Assembly (NCBI RefSeq): GCF_023921125.1
Contig: NZ_CP099466.1
Coordinates: forward strand, 1,550,001 to 1,614,000
Length of the DNA: 64,000 nucleotides
Direction: 5' to 3'
Source of the DNA: Arthrobacter caoxuetaonis
Lineage (GTDB): Bacteria > Actinomycetota > Actinomycetes > Actinomycetales > Micrococcaceae
Numbering within the stretch: the stretch's first letter is position 1; each line of letters starts with the position of its first letter. A program made the position numbers and the translations under genes. A model generated the notes under the pieces. The model saw nothing but the letters and a program-made list of their open reading frames with translations, had not been told where the DNA came from and did no database searches. Below, piece by piece: positions 36,200 through 60,735 of this stretch.

Positions 36200-36291
36200 G
36201 GCCGGTGGGTCCGGAACGGCGGCAACGAAACTCCTGTGCTCGCAGAGCTCGCAAGGAGTATTAAAGCCGCCTAACCCGGACCCTCGCGGCC
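36200..36291 (+). repeat. Structured 3'-end element, copy 1
   Basis: Stems, outside in: GGCC 36200-36203 with 36288-36291; GGGTCCGG 36207-36214 with CCGGACCC 36276-36283; GGCGGC 36218-36223 with GCCGCC 36266-36271; ACTCC 36230-36234 with GGAGT 36255-36259; apical hairpin GCTC-GCA-GAGC 36238-36248. Loop sequences AAC/TAAC and AACGAA/ATTAAA are identical in copy 2 while stems change in compensating fashion. It lies 25 nt after the aldo/keto reductase stop, in sense orientation. A small GTCCC/GGGAC hairpin precedes it. Confidence 0.75.
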
Positions 36292-36299
36292 TTCTTCGG

Positions 36300-36779
36300 T
36301 TAGAGTGTTTCGGGGATTCTGCGCCCGGGAAAAAGCGTCGAGTATTGCCGCCGGTACATTCTGCGTCCGACCAGGCGGTAGGCGAGACGGATCGGCGGCG
36401 GGATCTCCTTGAACAGTTCTTTTCGGTCCTGGGGAGGATTGGTGGCCAGCACCATGCCGAGGTAGCTCACCAGAAACTTCTTGTCGAGCTGTCCGATCCC
36501 GTGCTCGCCGACCGCCTTCATTTCCTTTTCGTTCAGGACCCTGTCCACAACAGGTATCACCTCGGTGACTTCGCGGCGCAGGTGGACTTTGAGGAGATTG
36601 GACAGGTCCTCATAGCGTTCAGTGAGTGCCTCACTGGCCGCCTTGTCTGCTGTCTCCGTCCAGGGCCGCCGGACCGGTTCGATGTCATCAAGCCGGACCC
36701 TGACTTGCCGGTGCTGCTCCAGCATCTGGGCCACATGCAGTGCGCACCCCGGCGCCCGGCCGGCCAGCTGGGGATACAT
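36300..36779 (-). CDS. Hemerythrin HHE domain protein, N-terminally truncated
   Basis: A 159-residue protein with hemerythrin-type helices: EQHRQVRVRLDDI and LLKVHLRREVTEVIPVVDR followed by GEHG. These hold His and Glu ligands for a di-iron site. Full-length relatives have one more N-terminal helix pair with HHxGED before LYPxL. That HHEGED stretch exists here immediately upstream of the ATG, in the same frame, but no start codon precedes it before a stop at 36912-36914. The gene therefore seems to have lost its 5' end and is probably a pseudogene or makes a shortened protein lacking two ligands. Confidence 0.6.
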   Translation of the reverse strand: MYPQLAGRAPGCALHVAQMLEQHRQVRVRLDDIEPVRRPWTETADKAASEALTERYEDLSNLLKVHLRREVTEVIPVVDRVLNEKEMKAVGEHGIGQLDKKFLVSYLGMVLATNPPQDRKELFKEIPPPIRLAYRLVGRRMYRRQYSTLFPGRRIPETL

Positions 36780-36797
36780 GAGCAGGTCCTCGCCCTC

Positions 36798-37037
36798 GTG
36801 GTGGCGTGCGCCGCCATCCTGCCCACCGCCGTGGTTGTGGGCGCCAGTCCGCTCGCACCATTGCCGCTGGCCATACTCTTTGGCCTCTGCGGCGCCGTTG
36901 CGCTGACGACGCTACCCATTACAGAGATCGCGGCGCGACGGGCGATGGGTGGACGGTTAAGCGGCACGGTCAGCACCACGTGCGCAGGCGTGAGGTCCGG
37001 GGCCCGCCGGCGAACACGTCACCCTCACCGCGAATAA
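36798..37037 (+). pseudogene. Possible membrane-protein remnant or small membrane ORF
   Basis: From GTG 36798 the plus strand encodes 79 residues with two hydrophobic stretches, beginning VVACAAILPTAVVVGA and continuing PLPLAILFGLCGAVALTTL, then a basic tail. Codon third positions are GC-rich as in real genes up to about 36950. There is no ribosome site. It abuts the broken 5' end of the hemerythrin gene, so it may be the end of another gene brought in by a rearrangement. Identity unknown. Confidence 0.3.
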
Positions 37038-37122
37038 GCGGGGGGAAAACATGCTTCTGGAGCAAGAGAGTGCATCGGAGTTTTCCTTACCCTGGACGAG
37101 AATCGTTGCGTTGATCACGAGT

Positions 37123-37173
37123 GTTCGCGCACGGTTCACCGGGACGCCGGTGCGTGTTCACCGCCGATTAACC
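37123..37173 (+). promoter_or_regulatory. PHO-box-like array of 11-nt direct repeats
   Basis: Units of exactly 11 nt start at 37123 (GTTCGCG), 37134 (GTTCACC), 37145 (degenerate), 37156 (GTTCACC) and 37167 (ATTAACC). This spacing and GTTCACC core match Streptomyces-type PhoP binding sites. It lies 53 bp upstream of the phosphatase/importer operon. The rest of the gap 37038-37225 shows no gene. Confidence 0.65.
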
Positions 37174-37225
37174 TTGGCCGGATGAACTCGGAGAGTCCCA
37201 ATTCGAGCACGACTCAGAGGTCTCA

Positions 37226-38005
37226 TTGAATACCGAACTGCCCTCCAGTCCGCAGGTTCCTGCAGACGTTCCGCCCTCAGTCGGCGGATTGTTCAATTTC
37301 CGTGACGCGGCATCAGGAACCGGAACTCCGGGACTGCGCAGGGGACTGCTCTTCCGATCTGGAGCCCTGAATGACCTTGACGCTGCCGGTCTTGCTGAAC
37401 TGGGTGCAGCACGGATCGCCACGGTGGTAGACCTGCGCGAGCCGGTGGAGGTTGCCTCGGCTCCGGATACTGTTCCGGCCGGAACGCGGGTGGTGAACAT
37501 TCCGCTCTACTGCGGAAGCGTCCCTGTCTCCGAGCCGATCGAAGCCGTCTACCGGCATCTGCTGCAGAACTGCGCCCGGGCACTGACCAGCGCCGTCGGC
37601 GAGGTGATCCGGAACCTTGACGGCGGTGTCCTGGTGCACTGTGCTGCAGGGAAAGACCGCACCGGGCTGGTGGTCGCGCTGGTGCTCGACGCCGCCGGGG
37701 CCTCCCGCAGTGCCATTGTGGAGGACTACTCCCGCACCGAAGCGGCCCTTCCCTGTTCCTTCCGCCGGGCTGTACTGGCCCGGCTGGGTGGCCGGATCAC
37801 CGATCCCGCGGAAATGGCCACCGCTGTCCGCCTGCATCTGGCCAGTCCGCAGGAGGTTCTGGACAGCGCACTGCAGGTCCTGGCTGAGGAGTCCTTCGAA
37901 GGTGAGACCGGTGCCGCTGCCTACCTGCTGCGGAACGGCTTGGATCGGGGAATGCTGGTCCGGGCCCGCGTCCTGCTGCACGGCATCGGAACTCCCGCGG
38001 CATGA
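37226..38005 (+). CDS. Tyrosine/phosphoinositide-type protein phosphatase (IphP / MptpB-like)
   Basis: A 259-residue cytosolic phosphatase. The P-loop HCAAGKDRTG (HCxxGKDRTG form) near residue 136 carries the nucleophilic cysteine and arginine. The N-terminal pattern NFRDAAS and RGLLFRSGAL is typical of the IphP/MptpB group, whose members dephosphorylate phosphotyrosine and phosphoinositides. Translation seems to start at TTG (37226), with AGAGG five bases upstream. It is first of six overlapping genes (to 43372) behind a PHO-box-like array. That context suggests a small phosphorylated metabolite rather than protein as its substrate; this is inference. Confidence 0.85.
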   Translation: MNTELPSSPQVPADVPPSVGGLFNFRDAASGTGTPGLRRGLLFRSGALNDLDAAGLAELGAARIATVVDLREPVEVASAPDTVPAGTRVVNIPLYCGSVPVSEPIEAVYRHLLQNCARALTSAVGEVIRNLDGGVLVHCAAGKDRTGLVVALVLDAAGASRSAIVEDYSRTEAALPCSFRRAVLARLGGRITDPAEMATAVRLHLASPQEVLDSALQVLAEESFEGETGAAAYLLRNGLDRGMLVRARVLLHGIGTPAA

Positions 38006-38958
38006 GCGGGGACGGGTACACCCTGATCCACCTCACGGACACTCATTTGCGTCAGCCGGGTGAGCTGCTGTTTGGTGCCTTGGACACGTGGGCGCGCACC
38101 GCAGAGGCCCTGCGTGCTGCGGCCCGCTACCGGCCCGATGCCGTCGTGGTTACCGGTGACATCGCCGATTCCGGCGCGGATATCTACGCCGTCGCTTCCG
38201 GGCTTTTCACCCGGGCCAGGCGGGAGCTGGGCTGCCCAGTCATCGTGCTGCCCGGTAACCATGACGTTCCCGGCACCCGGGCATGGGCGGCAGAATTATT
38301 TACCGGTTCGCAGACAGATACAGGCCCCGGTCCGGGTAACGACGTGCATTTCGTGGGAGGACTGCGCCTCATCACGCTGGATTCGGATGATCCAGGCCGG
38401 CCCGCAGGACGGCTTACGGGAGCGCAGCTGCAATGGCTGGATGATGTCCTGGCCGAGCCTGCCCCCGACGGCACCGTACTGGCCCTGCACCATCCACCCA
38501 TCGATTCATTGCTGCCGCAGCTGGCCGGCCGGGGCCTGGACAGGCCCGCAGAACTAGCCGGCGTGCTGGCCGGCACGGACGTCCGCGCCGTCCTGTGCGG
38601 GCACTACCACCATGCTCTGTCCGGTCGGCTGGGCGGTGTGCCGGTCTGGGTCGGCCCGGCGGTGTCCTACGGTCAGGATCTCTTCGCCCCACCGGAGACC
38701 GTGCAGGGCCTGGACAGCAGCTGGCTCTCGGTCATCCGGCTGGGCGAAAACAGCTTCAGCGCCGTCCCGGTGCCGCTTCTGCCCGCCGGAGCCTCGGTGT
38801 TCACCAACGCCGCCGTGCCCCCCGGGGCTGTCCCAGCCGCGGGTACCAGCCCTTCCACCCATCTCATCCCGGTGCCCGCAGGTGCACCTGGCCACCAATA
38901 CCGGCAGCAGCCGTTGCTGCCGGATTCCCGAGGAGAAACCATTGCTGCAACGCACTAA
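38002..38958 (+). CDS. Calcineurin-like metallophosphoesterase (CpdA/GpdQ type)
   Basis: A 318-residue binuclear-metal phosphoesterase. Metal-ligand motifs appear in order: DTHL near the N-terminus, GDIADSG, GNHD, HHPP and GHYHH. This set is that of class III cyclic-nucleotide phosphodiesterases and glycerophosphodiesterases. No signal peptide is present, so hydrolysis would be cytosolic. It overlaps the previous gene by four bases (ATGA) and the binding-protein gene by 17. A phosphodiester such as a glycerophosphodiester imported by the neighbouring transporter is a plausible substrate, but cAMP-like substrates are not excluded. Confidence 0.87.
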   Translation: MSGDGYTLIHLTDTHLRQPGELLFGALDTWARTAEALRAAARYRPDAVVVTGDIADSGADIYAVASGLFTRARRELGCPVIVLPGNHDVPGTRAWAAELFTGSQTDTGPGPGNDVHFVGGLRLITLDSDDPGRPAGRLTGAQLQWLDDVLAEPAPDGTVLALHHPPIDSLLPQLAGRGLDRPAELAGVLAGTDVRAVLCGHYHHALSGRLGGVPVWVGPAVSYGQDLFAPPETVQGLDSSWLSVIRLGENSFSAVPVPLLPAGASVFTNAAVPPGAVPAAGTSPSTHLIPVPAGAPGHQYRQQPLLPDSRGETIAATH

Positions 38959-40000
38959 GTACCCCGCCCTCGCCGTCGTCTCAGTTGCATCGCTGGCGTC
39001 GCTGGCTCTCCTGACCGCATGCAGCGGCAGCGCCGACGGCGCCGAAAACTCCCCGGCAGCCACAGCTTCCAGCACAGCGGCCGGCGCCACCGGCACCCTC
39101 ACGGTGTACACCTCTGAGCCGCAGGCCAAGATTGATGAATTGGTCGCCGCCTACAACGAGGTCAATCCGGAGGTCAGCGTTGAGGTCTTCCGCGCCGGCA
39201 CTGGGGAGCTGAAGACCCGGATCGCCACGGAGAAGGAGACTGGCGGCATCCAGGCCGACGTTATCCTCGCCGCCGACGTCCCCACGTTCGAGGCGTACGC
39301 CGCCGAGGGCGACCTGCAGGTCCTGGACATCGACAACGCCGGAGAATTGAACCAGGATATTGTCGACCCCGAGGGCTACTACGTGGGCACGCGCATTATT
39401 CCCACCGTCATCGCCTACAACACCACACTGGTGGACAGCGCCCCCGAGTCCTGGGCCGAACTGGCCGACGAGGAATACAAGGGCATGATCGCCATGCCGA
39501 ACCCGGACGTGTCCGGTGCCGCTGCCTTCAACACCACCGTCTGGCTCGAAACCCCGGCCCTGGGTGAGAACTGGCTGAAGAACCTGATCAAGAACGAACC
39601 GACCGTGCTGGAAAGCAACGGTCCAGTTGGGCAGGCCGTGGCCGCCGGTACGTCGGGCATCGGGATTGTGGTGGACTACGTGGCCCGCGAACTGGCAGCA
39701 AAGGGCTCGCCCCTCAGCCTGTCCTACCCGTCCGACGGCGTTCCGTACGTCTCCCAGCCTGCCGGCGTCTTCAATGATTCGAAGAACCCGGACGCCGCCA
39801 ACGAGTTCGTGGAGTTCCTGGTTTCGAAGGAAGGCCAGGAACTGGCCGTGGCGCAGTCCTACCTCCCGGTTCGCGAAGACGCCGGTGTCCCCTCAGGTGC
39901 GCCTTCCCTTGCCGACCTGGAGCTGCTGAATCCGGACCTCGCGGTGATCGCCGAGAAGCAGGCAAGCGCCGTCGCAAAGTTCAATGACCTCCTCAAGTAA
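38942..40000 (+). CDS. ABC importer substrate-binding lipoprotein (AfuA/FbpA-like)
   Basis: A 352-residue extracellular binding protein starting at TTG 38942 with GAGGAG ahead of it. The N-terminus is a lipoprotein signal ending LLTACSGS, then a linker, then the periplasmic-binding fold beginning TLTVYTSEPQAKIDEL. It belongs to the group that includes Fe(III)-, phosphonate- and sugar-phosphate-binding proteins (FbpA, AepX-like, AfuA). The Tyr-Tyr pair that holds iron in FbpA is not intact at the equivalent position (VVDYVARE), which argues against iron. It overlaps its neighbours by 17 bases on both sides. A phosphorylated organic solute is my inferred ligand. Confidence 0.83.
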   Translation: MLQRTKYPALAVVSVASLASLALLTACSGSADGAENSPAATASSTAAGATGTLTVYTSEPQAKIDELVAAYNEVNPEVSVEVFRAGTGELKTRIATEKETGGIQADVILAADVPTFEAYAAEGDLQVLDIDNAGELNQDIVDPEGYYVGTRIIPTVIAYNTTLVDSAPESWAELADEEYKGMIAMPNPDVSGAAAFNTTVWLETPALGENWLKNLIKNEPTVLESNGPVGQAVAAGTSGIGIVVDYVARELAAKGSPLSLSYPSDGVPYVSQPAGVFNDSKNPDAANEFVEFLVSKEGQELAVAQSYLPVREDAGVPSGAPSLADLELLNPDLAVIAEKQASAVAKFNDLLK

Positions 40001-41693
40001 TTCCGTTTCCCTGCCGGCACGGCAGCTCAGTACCGCCGGACAGAGGTCCCGGGGCGACGGACTGCACTGGCTCAGGTTGGCGGTCTGGGCTGCGCTGGCC
40101 CTGCTGGTGCTCTTCCCGCTCGGTGTCATTGCATTCCGCGGGGCCCAGCCGTCCAACGCCGATGTGCTCACGGACTCCGACGTCCTGGCCGCGGCGTGGA
40201 ACTCCGTTTCCTCCGCCGCCGGATCAGCCGCGCTGGCCACCGCGTTCGGTGCGCTGCTCGCCGTCGTCCTTGACCGGACCGATTTACCGGGCCGAACCGT
40301 GCTGCGCTGGATCTTCCTGCTGCCGTTCCTCATTCCGCCCTTCATTGGGGCGATGTCCTGGATGGCGCTGCTCTCCCCGGCTGGCACCGTGAACAAGGCG
40401 CTGATGGCGCTGACCGGATCCGCAGGCCCGGTGCTGGATATCTACGGCGGCGGCGGTGTGGTGTTCCTGCTCGCCGTGCACTCCTATCCGCTGGCCTACC
40501 TGGTGATCAGTGCAGCGCTGCGCCGGGTTCCCGGCAGCCTGGAGGAAGCCGCCCGGATCAGCGGTGCCGGCGGGCTGCGAACGTTCTGCCAGGTGACCCT
40601 GCCCCTGGTGCGCCCGGCCGTGGTAGCCGCGTTCGTGCTCACGTTGGTCGCTAACCTCTCCGACTTTGGCATTCCCGCGCTGATCGGCCTGCCCGAGCGG
40701 TACACCACGCTCACCACACTGGTGTACCGCTACCTCGCCTCCGGCACCGTGACCAATCCGCTGCCCGCCGTGGCCGCGATCGGCGTTGTGCTGCTGGTCC
40801 TGGGCCTGGCGGCCGTGCTGCTGCAGCGCCGGCTGCCCGGGGGCAGTGAACTTGGCGGGTCCGGAGCGTCTGCACTGCCTCTGCAGCTGGGGTCCTCCCG
40901 CTGGGCTGCGGCGGCGCTGCTGTGGTGCACCGCCGGCCTCGTCTGCGTCCTGCCGCTGCTGGCGCTGACAGAGCAGGCACTGCTGCCCGCTCCCGGTGTG
41001 CCGCTGACCTGGGACAACCTGACCCTGGCCAACATCGCCCGTGCCGTGACCAGCGCAGGAGCGCTCACCGGCATCGCCAACTCGGTGATGCTCGCACTCG
41101 GTGCGGCGGTGGCCTGCGGCGTCCTGGGACTCGGTGTTGGTGCGCTCCTGACCCGTACCCGACACCGCTCCAACACCGCACTGGACGTCACCGCCATGCT
41201 GCCGCAGGCACTGCCCGGCCTCGTCCTGGCTGTCGCCTGGCTGCTGATTGCCCCGGCGGTGGGTATTTTCAACACGCCGTGGGTGATCCTCGGCGCCTAC
41301 GTCATGGCATTCCTGGCCCTGGTGGTCCAATCCGTGCGTGCACCGCTGGAATCCGTGCCGGTGTCCCTGGACGAGGCTGCACGGATCTCCGGTGCCGGCC
41401 CGCTGCGGACACTGGCGGACGTGGCGCTGCGGCTGAGCGTGCCCGCGGCAGTGAGCGGCGCCGTCGTCGTCGCGCTGACCGCAGTGCGCGAACTGACCAT
41501 TTCCATCCTCCTGGTGGCGCCCGGCTCCCAGACACTGGGCGTGGTCATCTTCAACCTCCAGCAGGCCGGGGACTACAACTCGGCTTCCGCCCTGGCGCTG
41601 CTGGTCACGATCGTCGGCGTCGCGGGTCTCGCCGCGACTGCCGCCTGGGGTGCCCGCCGTACAGCGCGCACCCGCTTCCGGAAGGGAAAATAA
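39984..41693 (+). CDS. ABC importer permease, fused double-domain type
   Basis: A 569-residue membrane protein with about twelve helices made of two homologous permease halves. Each half carries an EAA-type loop contacting the ATPase: LEEAARISGAGGLRTF in the first and LDEAARISGAGPLRTL in the second. This fused arrangement is normal for the FbpB/AfuB branch. It begins inside the end of the binding-protein gene and abuts the ATPase gene with no gap. Confidence 0.9.
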   Translation: MTSSSNSVSLPARQLSTAGQRSRGDGLHWLRLAVWAALALLVLFPLGVIAFRGAQPSNADVLTDSDVLAAAWNSVSSAAGSAALATAFGALLAVVLDRTDLPGRTVLRWIFLLPFLIPPFIGAMSWMALLSPAGTVNKALMALTGSAGPVLDIYGGGGVVFLLAVHSYPLAYLVISAALRRVPGSLEEAARISGAGGLRTFCQVTLPLVRPAVVAAFVLTLVANLSDFGIPALIGLPERYTTLTTLVYRYLASGTVTNPLPAVAAIGVVLLVLGLAAVLLQRRLPGGSELGGSGASALPLQLGSSRWAAAALLWCTAGLVCVLPLLALTEQALLPAPGVPLTWDNLTLANIARAVTSAGALTGIANSVMLALGAAVACGVLGLGVGALLTRTRHRSNTALDVTAMLPQALPGLVLAVAWLLIAPAVGIFNTPWVILGAYVMAFLALVVQSVRAPLESVPVSLDEAARISGAGPLRTLADVALRLSVPAAVSGAVVVALTAVRELTISILLVAPGSQTLGVVIFNLQQAGDYNSASALALLVTIVGVAGLAATAAWGARRTARTRFRKGK

Positions 41694-42827
41694 ATGTCTT
41701 CGATCAGCCTTCAAGGCCTGCACCATGTCTACGCCAACGGCCATGTTGGCCTGTCCAATGTGGACCTGGACGTGCACGACGGCGAGTTCCTGGCATTGCT
41801 GGGCCCGTCGGGTTCCGGTAAAACCACGCTGCTGCGCAGCATCGCCGGGTTTGTTCAACCGGAGGGCGGCACTCTTTGCCTCGGAGGCAGGCCTGTGGCA
41901 GGGCCCGGCGTCTGGGTCCCGCCGGAGAAGCGGAACCTGGGTATGGTCTTCCAGGATCACGCGATCTGGCCACACTGGTCGGTGGCCCGGAACGTGGGGT
42001 ATCCGCTGCGCCTGGCGGGCCTGCCCCGCAAAGATGCCGAGGCCCGGGTGCGCAGCGTACTGGGACTGGTCGGGCTGGACGGGCTGGGGGAGCGGGCACC
42101 GGCTGCACTTTCCGGCGGCCAGCGCCAGCGAGTGGCCCTGGCGAGGGCGATCGCAGGCGCTCCACAGGCCCTCCTCCTGGACGAAGCGTTGTCTTCCCTT
42201 GATGAACCGCTGCGGGCCAGACTCCGTCTGGATCTCAAGGCGCTGACTAGCGAGCAGGGACTGACGTCGGTGCACGTCACGCACGACCGCGCAGAGGCCC
42301 TGGCCCTGGCAGACCGGGTGGCGGTCCTGCGGGCCGGGCGGATTGAACAGATTGGCACACCCCAGGATCTCGTGCGGAATCCGGCGTCGACGTTTGTGGC
42401 GTCTTTCGTCAGCGATGCCGTGCTGCTGGACGGTACCTGGGTGGAGGGACGGCTCGAGCTCGCGGGGGGCATCAGCATCCCCGGCGAACGGCTCGACGCC
42501 GGGCCGTGCGTGGGCGCGGACGGTCTGGGACACAGTGCCGTGGCGGTTACCGCCGCGGTGTCACCGATGGACCTGGTGCTGCACCCGAACAACGCCGGCG
42601 ACACCGGCTGGGCACCGACCGGTGTTGTGACCTCCGCGCTCTACGGACCGCACGGGTTTGACGTCTCTGCAGACTGGCAGGGCAGAACGTTGCGGGCGCA
42701 TGTCACAGGATGGGTACCCAAGCCGGGGGACCGGGTATCGCCGGAGGTTCTCCGGGCCCATGTGTTCGCGTCCGATGCGGTGGGGCCCGCGGCGGGAGCT
42801 GCTCGCCCCAGGCTGGTGCCGGCGTGA
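41694..42827 (+). CDS. ABC importer ATP-binding protein
   Basis: A 377-residue ATPase with Walker A GPSGSGKTT near residue 38, Q-loop, signature LSGGQRQRVALARA and Walker B LLLDEALSSLDEP, followed by a C-terminal TOBE domain that is typical of this importer class. It completes the transporter with the two genes before it. Its stop overlaps the next start (GTGA), so the histidine phosphatase is part of the same translational unit. Confidence 0.92.
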   Translation: MSSISLQGLHHVYANGHVGLSNVDLDVHDGEFLALLGPSGSGKTTLLRSIAGFVQPEGGTLCLGGRPVAGPGVWVPPEKRNLGMVFQDHAIWPHWSVARNVGYPLRLAGLPRKDAEARVRSVLGLVGLDGLGERAPAALSGGQRQRVALARAIAGAPQALLLDEALSSLDEPLRARLRLDLKALTSEQGLTSVHVTHDRAEALALADRVAVLRAGRIEQIGTPQDLVRNPASTFVASFVSDAVLLDGTWVEGRLELAGGISIPGERLDAGPCVGADGLGHSAVAVTAAVSPMDLVLHPNNAGDTGWAPTGVVTSALYGPHGFDVSADWQGRTLRAHVTGWVPKPGDRVSPEVLRAHVFASDAVGPAAGAARPRLVPA

Positions 42828-46174: not shown

Positions 46175-48721
46175 GTGAGTACCGAACCTGTTGCAGCAGA
46201 CCAGTCCGCTCCCAACCTCATCAGCGCCGCCGGCAACGGCATGGTCCGCGTCCGCGGCGCCCGGGAAAACAACCTCCGCAGCGTCGACGTCGATATTCCA
46301 CGCGACGCCATTGTTGCGTTTACCGGTATCTCCGGCTCCGGCAAGTCCTCCCTGGCGTTCGGCACCATCTACGCAGAAGCCCAGAAGCGGTACTTCGAAT
46401 CGGTGGCGCCTTACGCCCGCCGGCTGATCTCCCAGGGCCACAATCCCAAGGTGGAGGCCATCACTGGCCTGCCTCCCGCCGTCGCGCTCCAGCAGCGCCG
46501 CGGCACGGCGAGCTCACGGTCCACGGTCGGTACGCTCACCACGCTGTCGAACTCGATGCGGATGCTGTTCTCCCGCGGCGGCACCTACCCTGCCGATGCC
46601 GTGCCGGGCAGCCTCGACTCCGACGCCTTCTCGCCCAATACAGCCGCGGGTGCCTGCCGCGAATGCTCCGGCCTGGGCATCGCGCACACCGTGACCGAGG
46701 AATCCCTGGTCCCGGACCCGAACCTGAGCATCCGGGACGGTGCCATTGCGGCCTGGCCGGGCGCCTGGCAGGGCAAGAATCTGCGGGACATCCTGATCCA
46801 CCTGGGGTACGACGTCGATGTGCCCTGGCGGAAGCTGCCGAAAAAGGACCGCGACTGGATCCTCTTCACTGAGGAACAGCCCGTTGTCACCATCACCCCG
46901 CAGCGCGACCGCGTGGCCAAGCCGTACAAGGGACGGTTCTGGAGCGCACGCAGCTACGTGCTGCACACCCTGGCGGATTCGGGCAGCGCGAAGATGCGCG
47001 AACGGGTCCTGGCGTACATGGTCTCCGGACCCTGTCCCGTCTGCGGGGGAGCGGGTCTCCGCCCGGAGGCACTGGCCGTTACCTTCGCCGGCCGGAACAT
47101 CGCCGAACTCAACGGGGCGACCCTGGGCGAACTCGCGGAGGTCATCCGGCCGACAGCGGAGCTCAAGGAAGCGGGCACGGCGTCCCGGTCCGCGGCGTCC
47201 AACGAAAACACCGAGGTGGCCGTCACCATTACCCGGGACCTGCTTTCCCGGCTCGAAATCCTGATCTCCCTGGGGCTGGGTTACCTCAGCCTGTCCCGGG
47301 CAACGCCGACGCTTTCACCGGGGGAGATGCAGCGGCTGCGGATCGCCACCCAGCTGAGGTCCGGATTGTTCGGCGTCGTCTATGTCCTGGACGAACCCTC
47401 CGCCGGCCTGCACCCGGCGGATGCCGAACCGCTGCTGGCCGTCCTGCAGGAACTCAAGGATGCGGGGAACTCGGTATTCGTCGTCGAGCACAACATGGAC
47501 GTGGTCCGCAGCGCCGAATGGATTGTCGACGTCGGTCCGCAGGCGGGCGACGGCGGCGGCACCGTGCTCTACAGCGGTCCGGTTGCAGGACTGGCCGAGG
47601 TTGCGGAGAGCGCCACCCGGCCCTTCCTCTTCGGCGAAGCCGAGGAAACCGCTCCTGCCCGCCGCCGCGCTGAGCGCTGGCTGTCCCTTAAGGGCATCAC
47701 CCGGCACAACCTCGTGGACCTCGACGCCGAGATCCCGCTCGGCGTGCTGACAGCTGTGACCGGTGTGTCCGGGTCCGGCAAGTCCACGCTGGTCAGCCAG
47801 GTGCTGGCAGAGGTCGTGGGAACCCAGGTCAACGGGGCTCCGCCCGAGCCGGAAGATGAAGGCGACGACGCGGCGCCGGAGCGCGCAGACCCCGGCGTGC
47901 AGGTCCGCAGCATTGACGGCCTGGAGCATCTGGACCGGCTGGTGAAGGTGGACCAGCGACCCATTGGCCGGACCCCGCGGTCCAACCTGGCCACCTACAC
48001 GGGACTGTTCGACGCCGTCCGGAAGCTCTATGCCTCCACGGATGAGGCCCGGGCCCGCGGATACACCGCCGGACGGTTCTCCTTCAACGTGGCCGCCGGA
48101 CGCTGCGAGACCTGCCAGGGCGAGGGCTTCCTCGCCGTCGAGCTGCTGTTCCTGCCCGGGACCTATGGTCCCTGCCCGCAGTGCCACGGCGCGCGCTACA
48201 ACGAGGAAACCCTGGAAATCACGTACCGGGGCAAGAGCATCGCGGATGTGCTGGGCATGCGGGTGGAGACTGCCGCGGAGTTCCTGTCCGACGTTCCTGC
48301 CGCGGCACGCAGCCTGAACACCCTGCTCGACGTCGGGCTCGGCTACCTTCGCCTGGGCCAGCCCGCCACCGAGCTCTCCGGCGGTGAGGCCCAGCGGATC
48401 AAACTGGCCACCGAGCTGCAGCGGGCACGCCGCGGACACACGCTCTACCTGCTGGACGAGCCGACCACCGGCCTGCACCCGCAGGACGTGCAGCTGCTGC
48501 TGGCCCAGCTCAACCGGCTGGTGGACGCAGGCAACACGGTTGTGGTGGTGGAGCACTCGATGAACGTGGTGGCGTCTGCGGACTGGGTGATCGACATGGG
48601 CCCGGCAGGCGGCGACGACGGCGGCCGGATCATCTGTGCCGGAACGGCCGATGAGGTTGCGGGCTGTAAAGCCAGCCGGACGGCGCCGTACCTTTCTGCT
48701 GCACTGGAACGGATTCGCTGA
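46175..48721 (+). CDS. UvrA-family ATPase, short UvrA2 type
   Basis: An 848-residue twin-ATPase of the UvrA family, about 100 residues shorter than housekeeping UvrA. Motifs in order: Walker A GISGSGKSS near residue 50, zinc pair CREC, second pair CPVC, signature LSPGEMQRLRIA, Walker A GVSGSGKST near 529, zinc pairs CETC and CPQC, signature LSGGEAQRIKLA and Walker B LLDEPTTGLHP. The shortening and separation from other uvr genes suggest UvrA2, a class lacking the UvrB-binding domain and linked to tolerance of DNA-binding drugs. No drug-biosynthesis genes are near. The second copy of the structured element follows the stop by 13 nt. Confidence 0.85.
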   Translation: MSTEPVAADQSAPNLISAAGNGMVRVRGARENNLRSVDVDIPRDAIVAFTGISGSGKSSLAFGTIYAEAQKRYFESVAPYARRLISQGHNPKVEAITGLPPAVALQQRRGTASSRSTVGTLTTLSNSMRMLFSRGGTYPADAVPGSLDSDAFSPNTAAGACRECSGLGIAHTVTEESLVPDPNLSIRDGAIAAWPGAWQGKNLRDILIHLGYDVDVPWRKLPKKDRDWILFTEEQPVVTITPQRDRVAKPYKGRFWSARSYVLHTLADSGSAKMRERVLAYMVSGPCPVCGGAGLRPEALAVTFAGRNIAELNGATLGELAEVIRPTAELKEAGTASRSAASNENTEVAVTITRDLLSRLEILISLGLGYLSLSRATPTLSPGEMQRLRIATQLRSGLFGVVYVLDEPSAGLHPADAEPLLAVLQELKDAGNSVFVVEHNMDVVRSAEWIVDVGPQAGDGGGTVLYSGPVAGLAEVAESATRPFLFGEAEETAPARRRAERWLSLKGITRHNLVDLDAEIPLGVLTAVTGVSGSGKSTLVSQVLAEVVGTQVNGAPPEPEDEGDDAAPERADPGVQVRSIDGLEHLDRLVKVDQRPIGRTPRSNLATYTGLFDAVRKLYASTDEARARGYTAGRFSFNVAAGRCETCQGEGFLAVELLFLPGTYGPCPQCHGARYNEETLEITYRGKSIADVLGMRVETAAEFLSDVPAAARSLNTLLDVGLGYLRLGQPATELSGGEAQRIKLATELQRARRGHTLYLLDEPTTGLHPQDVQLLLAQLNRLVDAGNTVVVVEHSMNVVASADWVIDMGPAGGDDGGRIICAGTADEVAGCKASRTAPYLSAALERIR

Positions 48722-48734
48722 ACGTCTAGCGCGC

Positions 48735-48824
48735 GGCAGGAAGGTTCGGAACGGCGGCAACGAAACTCCCTGCTCGCAGAGCTCGCCGGGAGTATTAAAG
48801 CCGCCTAACCCGAGCGCTCCTGCC
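48735..48824 (+). repeat. Structured 3'-end element, copy 2
   Basis: Stems: GGCAGGA 48735-48741 with TCCTGCC 48818-48824; TCGG 48746-48749 with CCGA 48810-48813; GGCGGC 48753-48758 with GCCGCC 48800-48805; ACTCCC 48765-48770 with GGGAGT 48788-48793; apical GCTC-GCA-GAGC 48772-48782. Relative to copy 1 the outer stem is wholly different but still pairs, the third stem gains one pair, and the loops AAC, AACGAA, ATTAAA and TAAC are unchanged. It starts 13 nt after the UvrA-like stop. Confidence 0.75.
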
Positions 48825-48916
48825 TCGGTGCCAGTGGACGGCTTCGATCCGCGAAGATGAAGAATTCTTCATCGCCGTTTCACGGTGGCCTCATAAAGCC
48901 CTGAAACTATGTAGGC

Positions 48917-53083: not shown

Positions 53084-53124
53084 CCCACAAAACCCCCAAA
53101 AACCCCCAAGAAAAGGTGTCCATC

Positions 53125-55063: not shown

Positions 55064-55066
55064 ACG

Positions 55067-55417
55067 CTACCGGGGTGAGAGTACTGCTGCAGCCCGTTCC
55101 AGAGCGCCGGGAACGATCGAATAGTACGCCCACACACCGCGCTTGTCCCGGTGCAGGATTCCCGCGTCCACCAGGATCTTCAGGTGATGAGACACCGTGG
55201 GCTGGCCCAGCCCTACTGGTTCGGTCAGGTCACAGACACAGGCTTCCTGGTTCTCCTGTGCCGCGATGATGGACACCAGGCGCAGCCGGGTTGGTTCGGC
55301 GACGGCCTTGAGCAGCTGGGCAAACCGCTGCGCGTCCTCAGCGCTAAGCACGTCCCGGGTCAGCGGCGTGCAGCATTCTGCTGCAGCGGTTTCGGGGACG
55401 GTCTGTGCAGCATTCAC
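55067..55417 (-). CDS. arsR: ArsR-family arsenic-responsive repressor
   Basis: A 116-residue winged-helix repressor from a GTG at 55417. The ACVCDLTEPVGLGQPTVSHHLK region, given in parts (CVCDL; GQPTVSHHLK), combines the metalloid-binding Cys-x-Cys of E. coli-type ArsR in the helix before the recognition helix with the family DNA-binding motif. An extra Cys pair AECC lies near the N-terminus. It is divergent from acr3-arsC-FAD oxidoreductase and should be released by As(III) or Sb(III). Confidence 0.9.
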   Translation of the reverse strand: MNAAQTVPETAAAECCTPLTRDVLSAEDAQRFAQLLKAVAEPTRLRLVSIIAAQENQEACVCDLTEPVGLGQPTVSHHLKILVDAGILHRDKRGVWAYYSIVPGALERAAAVLSPR

Positions 55418-55437
55418 CCGACCATTATGCCCTCAGA

Positions 55438-55497
55438 TTGACACTTGTCGATATCTGCGCGGATACTCGACATCGAAGGGTGTCGATGTCCTTCGAT
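55438..55497 (+). promoter_or_regulatory. Promoter and operator region of the ars operon
   Basis: TTGACA (55438-55443), 18 bases, then GATACT (55462-55467) form a good sigma-70-type promoter directed at acr3. A perfect inverted repeat, ATCGAAGG (55472-55479) and CCTTCGAT (55490-55497), follows, and a TGTCGA...TCGACA dyad overlaps the spacer and -10. Either dyad could be the ArsR operator. Confidence 0.6.
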
Positions 55498-55532
55498 CAA
55501 TGATCCCGCTATGGCCGTCCTCGAGGAGCTTC

Positions 55533-56648
55533 GTGAGCCACCCCGCCCAGCCGCCTGCAACCGGCCAGGCCCCCGCCCGGCTCTCCACCCTTGACCGCTT
55601 CCTCCCCGTCTGGATTGTCGCTGCCATGGCGGCGGGTCTGCTGCTGGGCCGTTTCGTCCCCGGCATTGCGCCCACCCTGGACTCAGTGAGCGTCGCTGGC
55701 GTCTCGCTCCCCATCGCCGTCGGGCTCCTGGTGATGATGTACCCGGTGCTGGCCAAGGTGCGTTACAGCGAGACCCGCAGGGTTGTGGCCGACCGCAAAC
55801 TGATGATCACGTCCCTGGTGCTGAACTGGGTGGCGGCGCCTGCGTTTATGTTCGCCCTGGCCTGGACCTTCCTTCCGGACCTGCCTGAATACCGCACCGG
55901 ATTGATCATTGTGGGGCTGGCCCGCTGCATCGCGATGGTGATGATCTGGAACGATCTCGCATGCGGGGACCGTGAAGCCGCAGCGGTGCTGGTGGCAATC
56001 AACTCAGTTTTCCAGGTCCTCGCCTTCGGTGCCCTCGGCTGGTTCTACCTCCAGGTTCTGCCCGGTTGGCTCGGTCTGGAAACCGCCAGCGCAGACTTCT
56101 CGTTCTGGGCCATCACGCTGAGCGTCCTCATTTTCCTGGGCATTCCGCTGCTGGCCGGATTCCTTACCCGCACATTCGGCGAACGTGCCAGGGGGCGTGA
56201 CTGGTACGAGAACAGATTCCTGCCCAAGATTGGCCCCTGGGCACTTTACGGGCTCCTGTTTACGATCGTCCTGCTGTTCGCGATGCAGGGGGATGAGATT
56301 ACCTCCAACCCGCTCGACGTCGCCCGCATCGCCCTGCCGCTGCTGGTCTACTTTGTGGTCGTGTTCGTGGCCGGGATGGTGCTGGGCAAGCTCCTTGGCC
56401 TCGGGTATCCACGCACAACCACCCTTGCCTTCACCGCTTCCGGCAATAACTTCGAACTGGCCATCGCTGTTGCCATCGCCACGTACGGAGTGACCTCCGG
56501 CCAGGCGCTGGCCGGCGTCGTCGGACCGCTGATCGAAGTCCCCGTCCTGGTCGCCCTCGTTTATGCCGCTCTCTGGGCGCAGAAGAAGTACTGGCCCACA
56601 GCCACCCCCACCGTTGCCGACACCCCGGCAGAGAAGGCCAACCGATGA
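55533..56648 (+). CDS. acr3: ACR3-family arsenite efflux transporter
   Basis: A 371-residue membrane protein with about ten helices. The family motif GLARCIAMVMIWNDLACGDRE contains the essential cysteine of ACR3 carriers; given in parts it reads GLARCIAMVMIWNDLACG. It exports As(OH)3/arsenite using the membrane potential. GTG 55533 with GAGGAG four bases ahead is the chosen start; the open frame extends back through the promoter. It overlaps arsC by four bases (ATGA). Confidence 0.92.
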   Translation: MSHPAQPPATGQAPARLSTLDRFLPVWIVAAMAAGLLLGRFVPGIAPTLDSVSVAGVSLPIAVGLLVMMYPVLAKVRYSETRRVVADRKLMITSLVLNWVAAPAFMFALAWTFLPDLPEYRTGLIIVGLARCIAMVMIWNDLACGDREAAAVLVAINSVFQVLAFGALGWFYLQVLPGWLGLETASADFSFWAITLSVLIFLGIPLLAGFLTRTFGERARGRDWYENRFLPKIGPWALYGLLFTIVLLFAMQGDEITSNPLDVARIALPLLVYFVVVFVAGMVLGKLLGLGYPRTTTLAFTASGNNFELAIAVAIATYGVTSGQALAGVVGPLIEVPVLVALVYAALWAQKKYWPTATPTVADTPAEKANR

Positions 56649-57061
56649 CCGAAGCAGCTGCCAAGCCGTCCGTCCTGTTTGTCTGCGTCCACAACGCCGG
56701 ACGGTCGCAGATGGCCGCCGCGTACCTTCGGACCCTGGCCGAGGACCGGATCGTAGTCCGGTCCGCCGGGTCTGCGCCGGCTGAGCAGGTCAACCCGGCC
56801 GCCGTCGAGGCCATGGCGGAGGAAGGCATAGACATGTCAGCCGAGCAGCCCAAGGTCCTGACTACCGACGCCGTGCGGGAGTCCGACGTCGTCATCACGA
56901 TGGGCTGCGGCGACACCTGTCCGATCTACCCCGGAAAGCGCTACGAGGACTGGGAGCTCGAGGACCCGGCCGGGCAGGGCGTGGACGCCGTCCGCCCCAT
57001 TCGGGACGAGATCAAGGCGCGCATCCAGTCCCTGATTGCCGATCTTCTTCCAAGCGCCTAG
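56645..57061 (+). CDS. arsC: Arsenate reductase, low-molecular-weight phosphatase type
   Basis: A 138-residue enzyme with the CX5R P-loop VCVHNAGRSQ (Cys14, Arg20) at the N-terminus. A further cysteine pair sits in the loop GCGDTCPIYPG, the thiol relay of this class. It reduces As(V) to As(III) for export by Acr3, with electrons from thioredoxin or, in actinobacteria, mycothiol/mycoredoxin; the donor cannot be told from sequence. It overlaps acr3 and is followed 32 bp later by the flavoprotein. Confidence 0.93.
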   Translation: MTEAAAKPSVLFVCVHNAGRSQMAAAYLRTLAEDRIVVRSAGSAPAEQVNPAAVEAMAEEGIDMSAEQPKVLTTDAVRESDVVITMGCGDTCPIYPGKRYEDWELEDPAGQGVDAVRPIRDEIKARIQSLIADLLPSA

Positions 57062-57093
57062 CACCCGAACCACATTCTCCGCGAAGGAAATTC

Positions 57094-58605
57094 ATGTCGA
57101 AGAACACCGACACCGCACTGTCCCAGCTCCCCGTCGCCGTCATCGGCTCCGGGCCCGTTGGGCTGGCCGCCGCCGCGCACCTCCTTGAGCGCGGACTGAC
57201 CCCCATCATCTTCGAAGCCGGCGACTCACCGGCCGCGGCCGTCAACGCCTGGGGGCACATCCGGCTGTTCTCACCCTGGCAGTACGACGTCGATGCCGCC
57301 GCACGCCGCCTGCTCGAGGGCACCGGCTGGCAGGAACCGGACGCCGACACGCTGCCGACCGGGGCCGAACTCCTCGAACTGTACCTTCGCCCGCTGGCGG
57401 CCGTGCCGTCGATGAGCGGTGCCCTGCATTTGAACAGCGAAGTCGTTGCCGTCACCCGGGAAGGACTGGACAAGACCCGAACCGGCGGACGGGAGAACAC
57501 CCCGTTCCTGCTCCGCATTCGGGATGAGTCTGGCAGCGTGAGTGAACACCGGGTACGCGCAATCATCGACGCCTCCGGCACCTGGAACAACCCGAACCCG
57601 CTTGGACAGGCGGGGCTTCCTGCCGCAGGCGAAGCGGAGGCCTACGCTGCAGGCTTCATCACTGTCCCGCTGCCTGACGTAGCCGGCCGTGAGCGCGCCC
57701 GGTTTGCCGGCCGGCATGTCCTGGTGGTCGGTGCCGGGCACTCTGCAGCCAATAGTCTGCTGGCGCTGGGGGAGCTGGCCGAGCAGGAGCCGGACACCCG
57801 GATCAGCTGGGCCATTCGCCGGTCCTCGGCGGCCAGTGTTTATGGCGGCGGAGACCTGGACGGCCTGCCCGCCCGCGGCGCCCTGGGCAGCCGGTTGCGT
57901 GCCCTCGTCGAAGAGGGCCGGATCGAACTGCACACCTCGTTCACGATCACCGGGTTCAAAGCGGCGGACAGCCTCACGGTCGTGGGAAGCACCCCGTCCG
58001 GCGAAACGCAGCTGGACGTGGACCTGCTGGTTCCTGCTACCGGCTTCCGTCCCAGCCTGGACATGCTGCGCGAAATCCGGCTGGACCTTGATCCGGCAGT
58101 GGAAGCACCGCGGCAGCTCGGCCCGCTCATCGATCCGGAGTTCCACAGCTGCGGCACCGTGGAACCTCACGGTGCGCGGCTCCTGGCCCATCCGGAAAAG
58201 GACTTCTACATTGTGGGCATGAAGTCCTACGGCCGGGCGCCAACGTTCCTGATGGCCACCGGCTACGAGCAGGTTCGTTCCATCGCGGCAGCCCTTGCGG
58301 GGGACCAGGAAGCCGCGGACAAGGTGGAACTTGTCCTGCCCGAAACCGGGGTCTGCTCAACCGATCTGGGCGGCAGCTGCGACACCGATGCCAGCTGCGG
58401 GACCGACTCCGCCGCGGAAGAGGCTTCCTGCTGTGGGACGCCTGAGCCGTACACCGCTGCTGAACCGGAAGCGGCTTCGTCCTGCTGTGGAACCGCGCCT
58501 GAACCGGAACCGGCGGCGTCCTCGTGCTGCAGTGCACCGGAGCCGGCGTTCCTCGGCATCCCCACGGGTCTGGCGCACGGGCGCTCAGCCCGTGAGGAGA
58601 GCTAA
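57094..58605 (+). CDS. FAD-dependent oxidoreductase with vicinal-cysteine tail (ars operon)
   Basis: A 503-residue flavoprotein with two dinucleotide-binding folds: AVIGSGPVGLAAAAHLLERG at the N-terminus for FAD and VLVVGAGHSAANSLLAL near residue 208 for NAD(P)H. It resembles the flavin-monooxygenase-like oxidoreductases found in actinobacterial arsenic operons (sometimes named ArsO); its reaction is not established. The last 83 residues form a low-complexity tail with nine cysteines: singles at 421, 429, 435 and pairs at 446/447, 464/465 and 478/479, each pair set in an A-S-C-C-G/S context followed by P-E-P. Such pairs bind As(III) in ArsD. Confidence 0.85.
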   Translation: MSKNTDTALSQLPVAVIGSGPVGLAAAAHLLERGLTPIIFEAGDSPAAAVNAWGHIRLFSPWQYDVDAAARRLLEGTGWQEPDADTLPTGAELLELYLRPLAAVPSMSGALHLNSEVVAVTREGLDKTRTGGRENTPFLLRIRDESGSVSEHRVRAIIDASGTWNNPNPLGQAGLPAAGEAEAYAAGFITVPLPDVAGRERARFAGRHVLVVGAGHSAANSLLALGELAEQEPDTRISWAIRRSSAASVYGGGDLDGLPARGALGSRLRALVEEGRIELHTSFTITGFKAADSLTVVGSTPSGETQLDVDLLVPATGFRPSLDMLREIRLDLDPAVEAPRQLGPLIDPEFHSCGTVEPHGARLLAHPEKDFYIVGMKSYGRAPTFLMATGYEQVRSIAAALAGDQEAADKVELVLPETGVCSTDLGGSCDTDASCGTDSAAEEASCCGTPEPYTAAEPEAASSCCGTAPEPEPAASSCCSAPEPAFLGIPTGLAHGRSAREES

Positions 58606-59069
58606 GGGCACAACGCTTGAAGCGTTGAGTGCAGCGGCCAGAACTGCGCCGCTGGCAGCGGAGTCCCGGAGACAGCTGCTTCAAGGAACGTGAGGTGGGT
58701 GAGCCAGCCCGGGAGATAGGCGCCGGTGAGGTTGCCGAGCTTGAGATGGCGGAGTTCAAGGGTGCTTCCCTGCTCCGTGGGATCGAGGCTGAACTCCAGC
58801 TGTGATTCCGGTTCGTCCGGAAAGTTCCAGGTCATGGCCAGGAGCTCCGGCTCATTGGCCGTGAGCACCAGGCTTTTGGGCCCGAAGCCGTCCCCGTGGT
58901 CGATCAGTACCCGTCCGCCCGGCCTGAGATCACATTCGGTCGCCCTGCCCAGCCACTGGGACAACAGGGTGGGCTGGCGGAACGCGTTCCAGACGTCTTG
59001 CTGAGGAACGGGAAATGCCCAGGACACCGTGAGGACGTCGTCGGCCATTGAGTACTGGGAGAGTGGCAT
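58602..59069 (-). CDS. SRPBCC (AHSA1-like) domain protein
   Basis: A 155-residue protein of the START/AHSA1-like helix-grip fold: VSWAFPVPQQDVWNAFRQPTLLSQWLG at the N-terminus, given in part as PQQDVWNAFRQP, and the glycine-rich GRVLIDHGDG strand. It binds hydrophobic ligands or acts as an Aha1-like co-chaperone; no ligand can be assigned. Its stop overlaps the flavoprotein stop by four bases in convergent arrangement, and it probably shares a transcript with the upstream gene at 59109-60176. Confidence 0.85.
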   Translation of the reverse strand: MPLSQYSMADDVLTVSWAFPVPQQDVWNAFRQPTLLSQWLGRATECDLRPGGRVLIDHGDGFGPKSLVLTANEPELLAMTWNFPDEPESQLEFSLDPTEQGSTLELRHLKLGNLTGAYLPGWLTHLTFLEAAVSGTPLPAAQFWPLHSTLQALCP

Positions 59070-59108
59070 GGCGATGATTCTGGCACACTGCCCTGTCCGC
59101 GTGCGGAG

Positions 59109-60176
59109 CTAGCCGGTCCGGGTCCAGACGTCGCCGTTGGGCTCCCGGGACCAGAGCTGCCGCGGCACCTCTGCTTCGCGGACGACGTCGGTCAGCCACA
59201 GTGTGCTGTCTGGATCCCATCCGGCGAGGACAGTGGCGGTGTCCGCGTGCACCTCAAGTGCCCGGCCGGCCGTGTTGAGGTAGCCCATGGTCGTCAGATG
59301 CACTGCGTCCCATTCCGAGGCAACCCTCTGCCAATCCGGGATCACCCACTGGCCGTTCCTGCCAGTCGTGTGAAACCAGTCGTGTCTGCGGGAAGCAGTG
59401 ACCTCCACTGGATAAGCACGGCAAAGCGAGATCCAGTCCTCCGCAGTGTGTATCTCCAAGGTCCGCCCAGCTCCGTATACCGGAATCACTGTGGCCTCTT
59501 GCTCCCCGAAAGAGTCCTCCACCAGATTCAATGCTGCGGGGATGGCCCCCACAGTCCGGATGATTCCAAGAGGGCAGGACCACCAGGTTCCCGTGATGTT
59601 GGCGTAGACGCTCTCGGGGCGATCCAGTGCAGCCTGTGCTTCCTCGGAGCGCACCCCCTCAGCCCAATTGTTCAGCACCTCCTGCGGATTCCGAGGCAGC
59701 GGCGCCGGGTCCTCCGCGGAACGCCAGTCCACGGCCCACTGCTCCGCCTGATGCTCCTGGGACCAGGCTTGCCCGGTATGGGTGGCAAGGATCTGCCCAG
59801 CGATCGGCTGGAGGGCTGCCGTTATGGCCGGCAGGCCGGCGAGCACATCTTCCCCGTCGGGTTCCTGCCAGTACCGTGCGGTACCCACGGCCCTCTGCAG
59901 GGCCGCAGCGAGTTGTTCCTCGGTGATGCTGGACGCATCGATTGATCGAAGCGCCGCCGCCAGGTCGCCCACGGACGGCTCTTCGCTTGGAGCGCTGGCC
60001 TCAGAACCGCCGCTGGAAAGGGCGAAGAGAACCGTGGAAGTTCCTTTTCCGGGGTCCAGTTCGTACCCAAGATGGAAGACGGCGCTTCGGACGTCGGAAT
60101 CAAGTTCCATCGCGAGCTCCAGGCACAGACGCCGCCCGCGAGGTCCCTCAAGAAGCAGGTTCGGCTGGGTTTCCAT
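59109..60176 (-). CDS. Hypothetical protein, 355 residues
   Basis: I do not recognise a family. The frame has good codon character and AAGGA seven bases before the ATG, so it is very likely a real gene. The N-terminal 60 residues look globular and strand-rich; a helical segment follows (DLAAALRSIDASSITEEQL). The last 200 residues contain several Trp-rich strand motifs (TGTWWSCPLG, NGQWVIPDWQRV, DSTLWLTDVV). No signal peptide, membrane helix or catalytic motif is seen. It is followed 39 bp later by the SRPBCC gene. Upstream lies the four-box dyad. Confidence 0.75.
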   Translation of the reverse strand: METQPNLLLEGPRGRRLCLELAMELDSDVRSAVFHLGYELDPGKGTSTVLFALSSGGSEASAPSEEPSVGDLAAALRSIDASSITEEQLAAALQRAVGTARYWQEPDGEDVLAGLPAITAALQPIAGQILATHTGQAWSQEHQAEQWAVDWRSAEDPAPLPRNPQEVLNNWAEGVRSEEAQAALDRPESVYANITGTWWSCPLGIIRTVGAIPAALNLVEDSFGEQEATVIPVYGAGRTLEIHTAEDWISLCRAYPVEVTASRRHDWFHTTGRNGQWVIPDWQRVASEWDAVHLTTMGYLNTAGRALEVHADTATVLAGWDPDSTLWLTDVVREAEVPRQLWSREPNGDVWTRTG

Positions 60177-60291
60177 CCGCCCATCCTTGCATGGCGCCTG
60201 CTTGTCCGGACGCCGGATGCCGTCGATCGGGCTGTCCGGTCCAAGTCGAGGCTACGCCTCAGGGGGCCCAGAGCGATCACCCCCTCATCCT

Positions 60292-60424
60292 CTGGGGAGA
60301 TAACGCTCTTTAGGGAAGGTTCAGCGAAACCATTGGGGAGGTAACGCTGCTTTGACCCGCTCAGAACAGCGATATCTCCCCAAACGTTGGGCGAGAAAGA
60401 CCCATAACAGTGTTATCTCCCCAA
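60292..60424. repeat. Symmetric array of four 17-bp boxes
   Basis: Boxes of consensus TTGGGGAGATAACGCTG occur at 60292-60308 and 60333-60349 in plus orientation and at 60367-60383 and 60408-60424 in minus orientation. Spacing is 41 bp inside each pair and 34 bp across the centre. The arrangement is a dyad centred at about 60358. The remaining parts of the gap 60177-60505 show no gene. Function unknown: operator, transposon relic or palindromic repeat unit. Confidence 0.7.
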
Positions 60425-60505
60425 AGGTTCGACGCCGGCCACAAAATCGTGAGAGCTGGTACGCAGAGAGTGTTGCTATGACACGGTGCATGCATAAGGG
60501 ACCGT

Positions 60506-60652
60506 ATGGCCAGGACCTCAGCAGGGAATGACAAGGAGCGTGGTGTTTCCGAGCGTCAGCTTGTTGCCGCGAGATTCAGATGGTGGGCAGCTGCGGCGTG
60601 CTTCGCAGTGCTGCTCGCCGCCGCCGTCCTGCTCCGCCGTGCACGCAACTGA
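60506..60652 (+). CDS. Small membrane protein, 48 residues
   Basis: An ATG at 60506 with AAGGGA four bases upstream opens a 48-codon frame ending at TGA 60650-60652. The product has a charged N-terminal half (SAGNDKERGVSERQL) and a single hydrophobic helix, WWAAAACFAVLLAAAVLL, followed by RRARN, so it would sit in the membrane with a basic C-terminal end inside. No family is recognised. It lies between the four-box dyad and the third structured element. Confidence 0.5.
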   Translation: MARTSAGNDKERGVSERQLVAARFRWWAAAACFAVLLAAAVLLRRARN

Positions 60653-60678
60653 GACACGCCGAGAACGGCGGACGCAAA

Positions 60679-60735
60679 GCGCCGGACGGACCGGGTTAGG
60701 CGGCAGGATTGCAGCCGTTCCGGTCCGCCCGGCGC
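60679..60735 (-). repeat. Structured 3'-end element, copy 3 (short form)
   Basis: On the minus strand a 16-bp outer stem (60735-60720 with 60694-60679) has 15 Watson-Crick pairs and one G-U pair; on the plus strand that position would be an A-C mismatch. Inside it, AAC-GGC and GCCGCC-TAAC match copies 1 and 2, but the AACGAA/ATTAAA loop and apical hairpin are missing. It begins 28 nt after the fadB stop, in sense with fadB. Confidence 0.65.

Follow-up and report, generated by a model that had tools for sequence, protein, structure and literature searches.

A hairpin element with two recurring internal loops lies behind the stop codons of unrelated Arthrobacter housekeeping genes and probably marks or protects message ends

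Within 64,000 nucleotides of Arthrobacter caoxuetaonis DNA (NZ_CP099466.1, positions 1,550,001 to 1,614,000; hereafter the window, in whose numbering all positions are given), we find three copies of a hairpin element of about 100 bases with two recurring internal loops, which in Arthrobacter sits just 3′ of the stop codons of many unrelated housekeeping genes. The element probably marks or protects message ends. We favor the view that it represents a new family of cis-acting 3′-end and intercistronic mRNA hairpins, whose ordinary outer stem would enclose a constant core recognized for RNA processing or 3′-end protection, and we put the probability of this reading at about 0.48. The copies and the genes preceding them are listed below, with scores from a covariance model, R1, that was built from eight copies of the element (G and L numbers denote genomes and loci throughout).

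36194..36297, plus strand: copy 1, full element behind the aldo/keto reductase gene (R1 match of 103.5 bits, sequence and fold; earlier span 36200-36291)
36215..36217 and 36272-36275, plus strand: loop 1 of copy 1, AAC on the 5′ side and TAAC on the 3′ side (sequence and alignment)
36224..36229 and 36260-36265, plus strand: loop 2 of copy 1, AACGAA on the 5′ side and ATTAAA on the 3′ side (sequence and alignment)
36230..36259, plus strand: inner hairpin of copy 1, stem 3 plus the apical GCTC-GCA-GAGC (sequence and fold)
48729..48830, plus strand: copy 2, full element behind the UvrA-like gene, a clade-restricted site (R1 match of 104.1 bits)
48750..48752 and 48806-48809, plus strand: loop 1 of copy 2, AAC and TAAC (sequence and alignment)
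48759-48764 and 48794-48799, plus strand: loop 2 of copy 2, AACGAA and ATTAAA (sequence and alignment)
60674..60740, minus strand: copy 3, trimmed element behind the fadB-like gene (R1 match of 58.9 bits)
60719-60717 and 60698-60695, minus strand: AAC/TAAC loop of copy 3, retained together with the outer stem and stem 2; the inner part is lost
35197..36174, plus strand: aldo/keto reductase gene, 5′ of copy 1 (PF00248; ortholog in 29 of 29 genus genomes)
46175..48721, plus strand: UvrA-like ABC ATPase gene, 5′ of copy 2 (PF17755; 29 of 29 genus genomes)
60763..62898, minus strand: gene of a FadB-like fatty-acid oxidation protein, 5′ of copy 3 (PF02737, PF00725, PF00378; 29 of 29 genus genomes)

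The original prediction had placed three copies of a structured element just after the stops of these genes, the third without its inner part; reading back the sequence and matching the proteins to families bore this out. Each of the three copies contains the 13 bases GCCGCCTAACCCG once, and the window has no other exact occurrence; with up to two mismatches there are six matches versus 3.8 expected, so this sequence is insufficient as evidence when taken alone. The exact pattern of the shared core is found at seven places in the 3.93-Mb genome and at none when reversed; with shorter spacing, it also picks up copy 3. The sense strands of copies 1 to 3 fold better than dinucleotide shuffles (z of -5.0, -3.9 and -5.6) and the opposite strands do so about equally well (-5.6, -3.5 and -4.9), leaving folding energy without power to tell the strand. 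When eight copies were aligned to a hand-written structure, 93.7% of cells paired, whereas shuffles reached 83.6% and slid versions no more than 48.1%; the structure had been drawn from the same eight copies and is hence favored by the slid control. Eleven of its 31 pairs were altered on both sides across these copies, ten of them in the outer stem. The loops had been described as identical between copies 1 and 2. This holds widely for loop 2, which is intact in 169 of 186 parsed copies and in 97 of the 113 that were chosen without any pattern holding those letters, whereas AAC/TAAC is merely the commonest reading of loop 1 (87 of the 186); the parser tolerated one mismatch per side and could not parse nine of 195 copies, copy 3 among them.

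Searches with the covariance model turned up the further copies that a genuine family should have. R1 matches ten places in this genome (all at an E value of 2.1e-10 or better), all 29 genomes of the genus, with 2-21 copies each (lower bounds, since 139 candidates were scored per genome), and, at E ≤0.001 and under stricter filters than in the genus, 30 of 197 family genomes in 7 of 32 genera. The nine genomes with at least 16 copies (16-21) form one clade according to copy counts and a three-gene tree, which makes dispersal by copying likely. A pattern scan of named genomes yielded at least 80 loci, all from Arthrobacter records bar one from Paenarthrobacter; 76 of these 80 also match R1, while four (L083, L099, L103, L108) have no match at E ≤0.001, L099 carrying one of 15.1 bits apart from its pattern match. 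In the window, no Rfam family reaches its curated score. At E ≤1 in six further loci, mir-3158 alone was hit over an element, on both strands, and we regard these hits as chance (best match 29.9 bits, E 0.18, where 97 bits are required). We recognized no description of this element in the literature within reach of our search, subscription journals being largely beyond it. A table in PMC12306157 gives the numbers of palindromes in one Arthrobacter species; generic palindromes, which may include the element, have thus already been counted there.

Several observations on the placement of copies deserve mention. The 20 elements of G020, a complete chromosome of 3.42 Mb, all fall outside the stretch from 1.76 to 2.67 Mb, and the ten of G015 outside that from 1.60 to 2.78 Mb, perhaps reflecting a bias away from the terminus. 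At L236, L267, L276 and L274, oppositely oriented pairs of elements share one intergenic region. Known RNA families near other copies comprise an msiK RNA (L048:7407-7466, minus strand) and a fluoride riboswitch (L113:314-392, plus strand).

The element is biased in strand and position. Collapsing 392 aligned rows gave 231 non-overlapping places, 195 of them unique and 170 with enough flank and two neighboring genes to be classified (including L179, a very weak match). Of the 170, 152 are in sense to a preceding gene, divided equally between co-directional and convergent gene pairs (76 each), 17 are antisense to both neighbors and one lies between divergent genes; the expectation that copies are always in sense is thus correct for the window and too strong elsewhere. 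The R1 match starts at a median of 33 nt past the stop (152 sense copies). Reductase and fadB loci, having been retrieved via their genes, weigh too heavily, so we grouped copies by upstream protein into 41 sites. Sense copies within 100 nt of a stop were found at 27 sites—20 in sense only and seven, between convergent genes, in both respects—and antisense only at two, namely the inverted rpoB-rpoC copies and L090, a Paenarthrobacter record. Among 21 convergent sites, 20 have the element closer to the gene to which it is sense (p 2e-5). The upstream genes form no obvious regulon: of the 20 site representatives searched, 18 were assigned a family, with no obvious common pathway among citrate synthase, isocitrate dehydrogenase, heme o synthase, glutaminase, NAD synthase, GrpE, ketoacyl synthase and others. 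Some sites lie within operons, between rpoB and rpoC, between a UMP-kinase-like gene and that of ribosome recycling factor (frr), and between grpE and dnaJ.

How well are the copies kept? Sister genomes G019 and G020 share 13 orthologous pairs, 12 of which were used for the element once a divergent pair at the reductase site was left out. In these 12, 3 of 760 core sites and 10 of 360 arm sites have changed, as compared to 93 in 5655 for the mostly coding upstream stretch (13 pairs) and to 144 in 680 and 96 in 709 for the 60-nt flanks, counts that are inflated by misaligned tandem duplications. The core thus differs from the mostly coding stretch at p 0.004 and from the upstream flank at p 2e-46. 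Its conservation is therefore equal to that of coding DNA or higher, and greatly exceeds that of the adjacent sequence; the data do not bear out anything stronger. Such conservation argues for a present use of the element. Homogenization of copies within genomes, an idea first prompted by the reductase and fadB sites, was set aside: at one stem-3 pair in 26 genomes, variants seem by eye to track sites over genomes, the one exception being the reductase-site copy in G019 versus G020.

Compensating changes in the outer stem, one of the arguments of the original prediction, carry less weight than was given to them. There are 131 distinct outer stems among the 186 parsed copies, with all four Watson-Crick pairs at several positions, so that the stem does vary widely, but not completely: the three pairs adjoining loop 1 (CGG/CCG) are the same in the eight copies first aligned. 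Over ten positions in 97 copies with an AAC/TAAC loop, a copy's own arms pair at 93%, arms of orthologs at 92% and arms of different sites at 79%. Within orthologous sites (the twelve largest groups, eight of which hold at least three AAC/TAAC-loop copies), both-sided changes were found at five positions only, in four of the eight examinable groups; most compensating changes therefore compare different hairpins with a common core. Quasi-palindrome correction was considered as the sole cause of stem pairing and judged unlikely, because the internal loops stay unpaired; unpaired loops beside variable stems seem better explained by selection than by palindrome-correcting mutation alone.

The three sites in the window differ in age. 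The reductase site carries the element in 22 of 29 genus genomes (E 4e-10 or better) plus a weak remnant in G003 (E 0.6), and the fadB site in 25 of 29 (E 4e-4 or better), by eye 21 full, three trimmed (G000, G004, G012) and one degenerate (G013), the trimmed form of copy 3 thereby recurring in G004 and G012. At the UvrA-like site, only five of 29 genomes have it, all within an eight-genome clade that is fully supported in the three-gene tree and in which G003 retains a remnant of 20.9 bits. Copies 1 and 3 accordingly occupy old sites, whereas the distribution of copy 2 reflects either a gain in this clade or losses elsewhere. In some genomes, a plain strong hairpin takes the place of the element (G010, G013 and G022 behind the reductase gene; G007, G022, G023 and G024 behind fadB); at the reductase site of G004, G005 and G012 no such obvious hairpin is seen. 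As for target-site duplications, at the three window sites we could by eye align no clean empty site to a filled one. Just outside the element, at L187, L193, L208 and other reductase and fadB flanks, arms or adjoining bases are tandemly duplicated, in numbers that differ between sister genomes, with the element itself little altered. The genus has at least two UvrA-type ATPases, the window gene at 46175-48721 and a 49% identical relative (G000:C1:1813188).

The spacer between rpoB and rpoC, the genes of the two large RNA polymerase subunits, is occupied in several genera. Among 17 loci with the element there, 14 are in sense and three inverted (L069, L088, L120). In a separate, overlapping set of 30 family genomes whose spacers were fetched, a set that leaves aside genus genomes with few copies, we count six clear matches, five in sense and that of G065 inverted, plus a borderline one in G056 (16.6 bits). 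Most other spacers among the 30 form a plain GC-rich hairpin, and five genomes (G032, G053, G057, G062, G080) have short spacers without a hairpin in the folded part, which stopped 50 bases short of the spacer's end. These plain hairpins in relatives mean that the element replaces or elaborates an ordinary intercistronic hairpin. By eye, the last ~40 bases 5′ of rpoC are much alike across many family genera (L324-L353); ahead of them, most of the 30 genomes have a GC-rich hairpin.

What might the element do? Further copies, shared positions, conservation and the lack of an Rfam match speak for a conserved structured element with a sense 3′ bias, as had been proposed; the alternatives offered with that proposal are not fully separated by sequence. 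A function in the RNA of the preceding gene is quite likely. The transcript of the upstream gene would run into a long irregular hairpin starting a few tens of bases past the stop. The site-specific outer stem would do the ordinary work of a 3′-end hairpin, blocking 3′-5′ decay and helping 3′-end formation, and the constant module within it—stem 2 plus the two internal loops—would be read by a trans-acting protein, at best guess a processing enzyme of the ribonuclease III (RNase III) type that cuts or trims at the loops. Cutting would leave the upstream message ending in a protected hairpin and release the downstream one, be it rpoC, dnaJ or frr. We infer transcription of the element, its processing and the enzyme alike. 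A role in processing or stability, which fits position, strand and structure, rather than in plain termination is about as likely as not, and RNase III in particular is a less likely, tentative suggestion.

A number of observations weigh against this proposal. The strongest single fact against a function in sense RNA only is that the inverted rpoB-rpoC cores (three of 17 loci, plus G065) keep loop 2 intact. Twelve of the 41 sites have no stop within 100 nt, six are antisense to both neighbors and one lies between divergent genes, as judged from a purpose-made simple gene caller that may overlook small genes. Single sites can do without the core, which has been lost or trimmed behind fadB and the reductase gene. 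When the reductase-site pair is included in the comparison of G019 and G020, the core shows 7 changes in 823 sites and no longer stands out from the mostly coding stretch (p 0.095), nor do core and arms together with that pair left out (p 0.29). Finally, a G-U pair of copy 3 possible only on the sense strand had been taken to point to RNA, an argument that does not survive: the 131 distinct stems show no significant sense-strand excess of G-U cells (65 versus 53 A-C, p 0.31), and in stem 3 A-C cells outnumber G-U by 42 to 5.

Our second choice is a decorated intrinsic terminator, wherein transcription would stop at the hairpin and the constant core would modulate or safeguard this termination. 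The position right after stops, the 76 classified copies between convergent genes, the plain terminator-like hairpins that several genomes without the element have at the same sites and the T-rich tail at many fadB sites would all suit a terminator. Yet most copies lack a T-tract—at least four T in the eight bases after the right arm were counted in just 20 of 185 copies, with arm ends placed by a simple ungapped rule—and at the three intra-operon sites complete termination would leave the next gene unexpressed, save where it has a promoter of its own. Rare T-tracts and intra-operon sites together speak against a plain terminator and make it unlikely.

Might the element instead be mobile and mostly parasitic or neutral, akin to a miniature inverted-repeat transposable element (MITE) or a repetitive extragenic palindromic (REP) sequence that settles in hairpins or terminators? 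Inverted rpoB-rpoC copies and lineage-specific copy number keep this idea alive, as do the patchy presence in the family, the confinement of the UvrA-like site to one clade and the recurrence of one core inside different outer stems. Against it stand the conservation of copies between sister genomes, which far exceeds that of their flanks, the sharing of the reductase and fadB sites across the genus and the occurrence of rpoB-rpoC copies in several genera; in addition, variable ends around a constant inside are the reverse of terminal inverted repeats. A REP system with its REP-associated tyrosine transposase (RAYT) was rejected, as the Y1 transposase family PF01797, the only type searched for, is in none of 29 genus genomes and in 5 of 14 controls. 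Nor did a search by the left half of the core find an autonomous parent with distant halves: compared place by place in six genomes (G000, G002, G005, G015, G020, G026; G009 and G021 not included), the left 13-mer falls inside an R1 match in 63 of 65 cases, and the two remaining places (L415, L416) have no element around it, with one weak match of 11.7 bits elsewhere. Carriage by plasmids or phages was likewise rejected, as the core of copy 1 is unmatched in plasmid or phage records and a single pattern match in a viral contig has no R1 match at E ≤0.001. On balance, we hold a mobile repeat to be quite unlikely. A cruciform or duplex binding site for a nucleoid protein or topoisomerase is very improbable: the two strands do not differ in how well they fold, the core is retained in inverted copies and G-U pairs are not in excess, but the sense bias relative to the nearer gene and the closeness to stops fit poorly with a DNA-level element.

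To our knowledge, how 3′ ends are made and protected in high-GC actinobacterial messages is poorly understood. The element's constant core within variable outer stems, together with sister species that have a full, trimmed or plain hairpin at the same gene, provides a ready natural experiment, to which the copy between rpoB and rpoC adds. It also illustrates how a repeat may have the appearance of a mobile one, with many copies, a patchy occurrence and both orientations at one place, and yet keep its copies well conserved. A bolder, rather doubtful extension would be a hidden post-transcriptional network spread by module copying: a portable RNA recognition module would have been grafted into 3′-end hairpins of unrelated housekeeping messages throughout the genus, as well as into the rpoB-rpoC spacer, and a single dedicated RNA-binding protein or nuclease would read it.

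How does the element compare with known systems? Intrinsic transcription terminators are GC-rich hairpins just after the stop, which the element resembles in fold and distance; it differs from them in mostly lacking a T-tract, in its intra-operon sites and in its constant core. Compared to a MITE, it has no conserved terminal inverted repeats, its outer arms differing between sites with only the innermost pairs shared. REP sequences are palindromic, extragenic and located after genes and inside operons, and so is the element, which is, however, longer, has two internal loops and a strand bias, and occurs in a genus without Y1 transposase. NEMIS/Correia, ERIC and CIR are intergenic repeats of ~100-155 bp whose RNA forms stem-loops, according to the available part of PMC2229807; NEMIS has there been proposed as an RNase III substrate, and ERIC affects upstream mRNA stability depending on orientation. 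The element is similar in length, intergenic location and stem-loop formation, but is set apart by a constant inner core, variable ends and sense bias, and by at most 21 copies found per genome with some sites shared across the genus. Like an RNase III signal, the element is an irregular hairpin with an internal loop, placed between or after genes. T7 R1.1, a model RNase III signal located between two genes, comprises 60 nt of RNA and has an asymmetric internal loop of 4/5 nt (PMC6121014, available part); it shares with our element the irregular hairpin, the asymmetric internal loop and the intergenic position (PMC6121014, PMC8708148, as far as available). The element is longer, has two internal loops and forms a multi-copy chromosomal family mostly at 3′ ends; among the systems compared, T7 R1.1, as described in those parts, is the nearest tested analogue of a processing hairpin.

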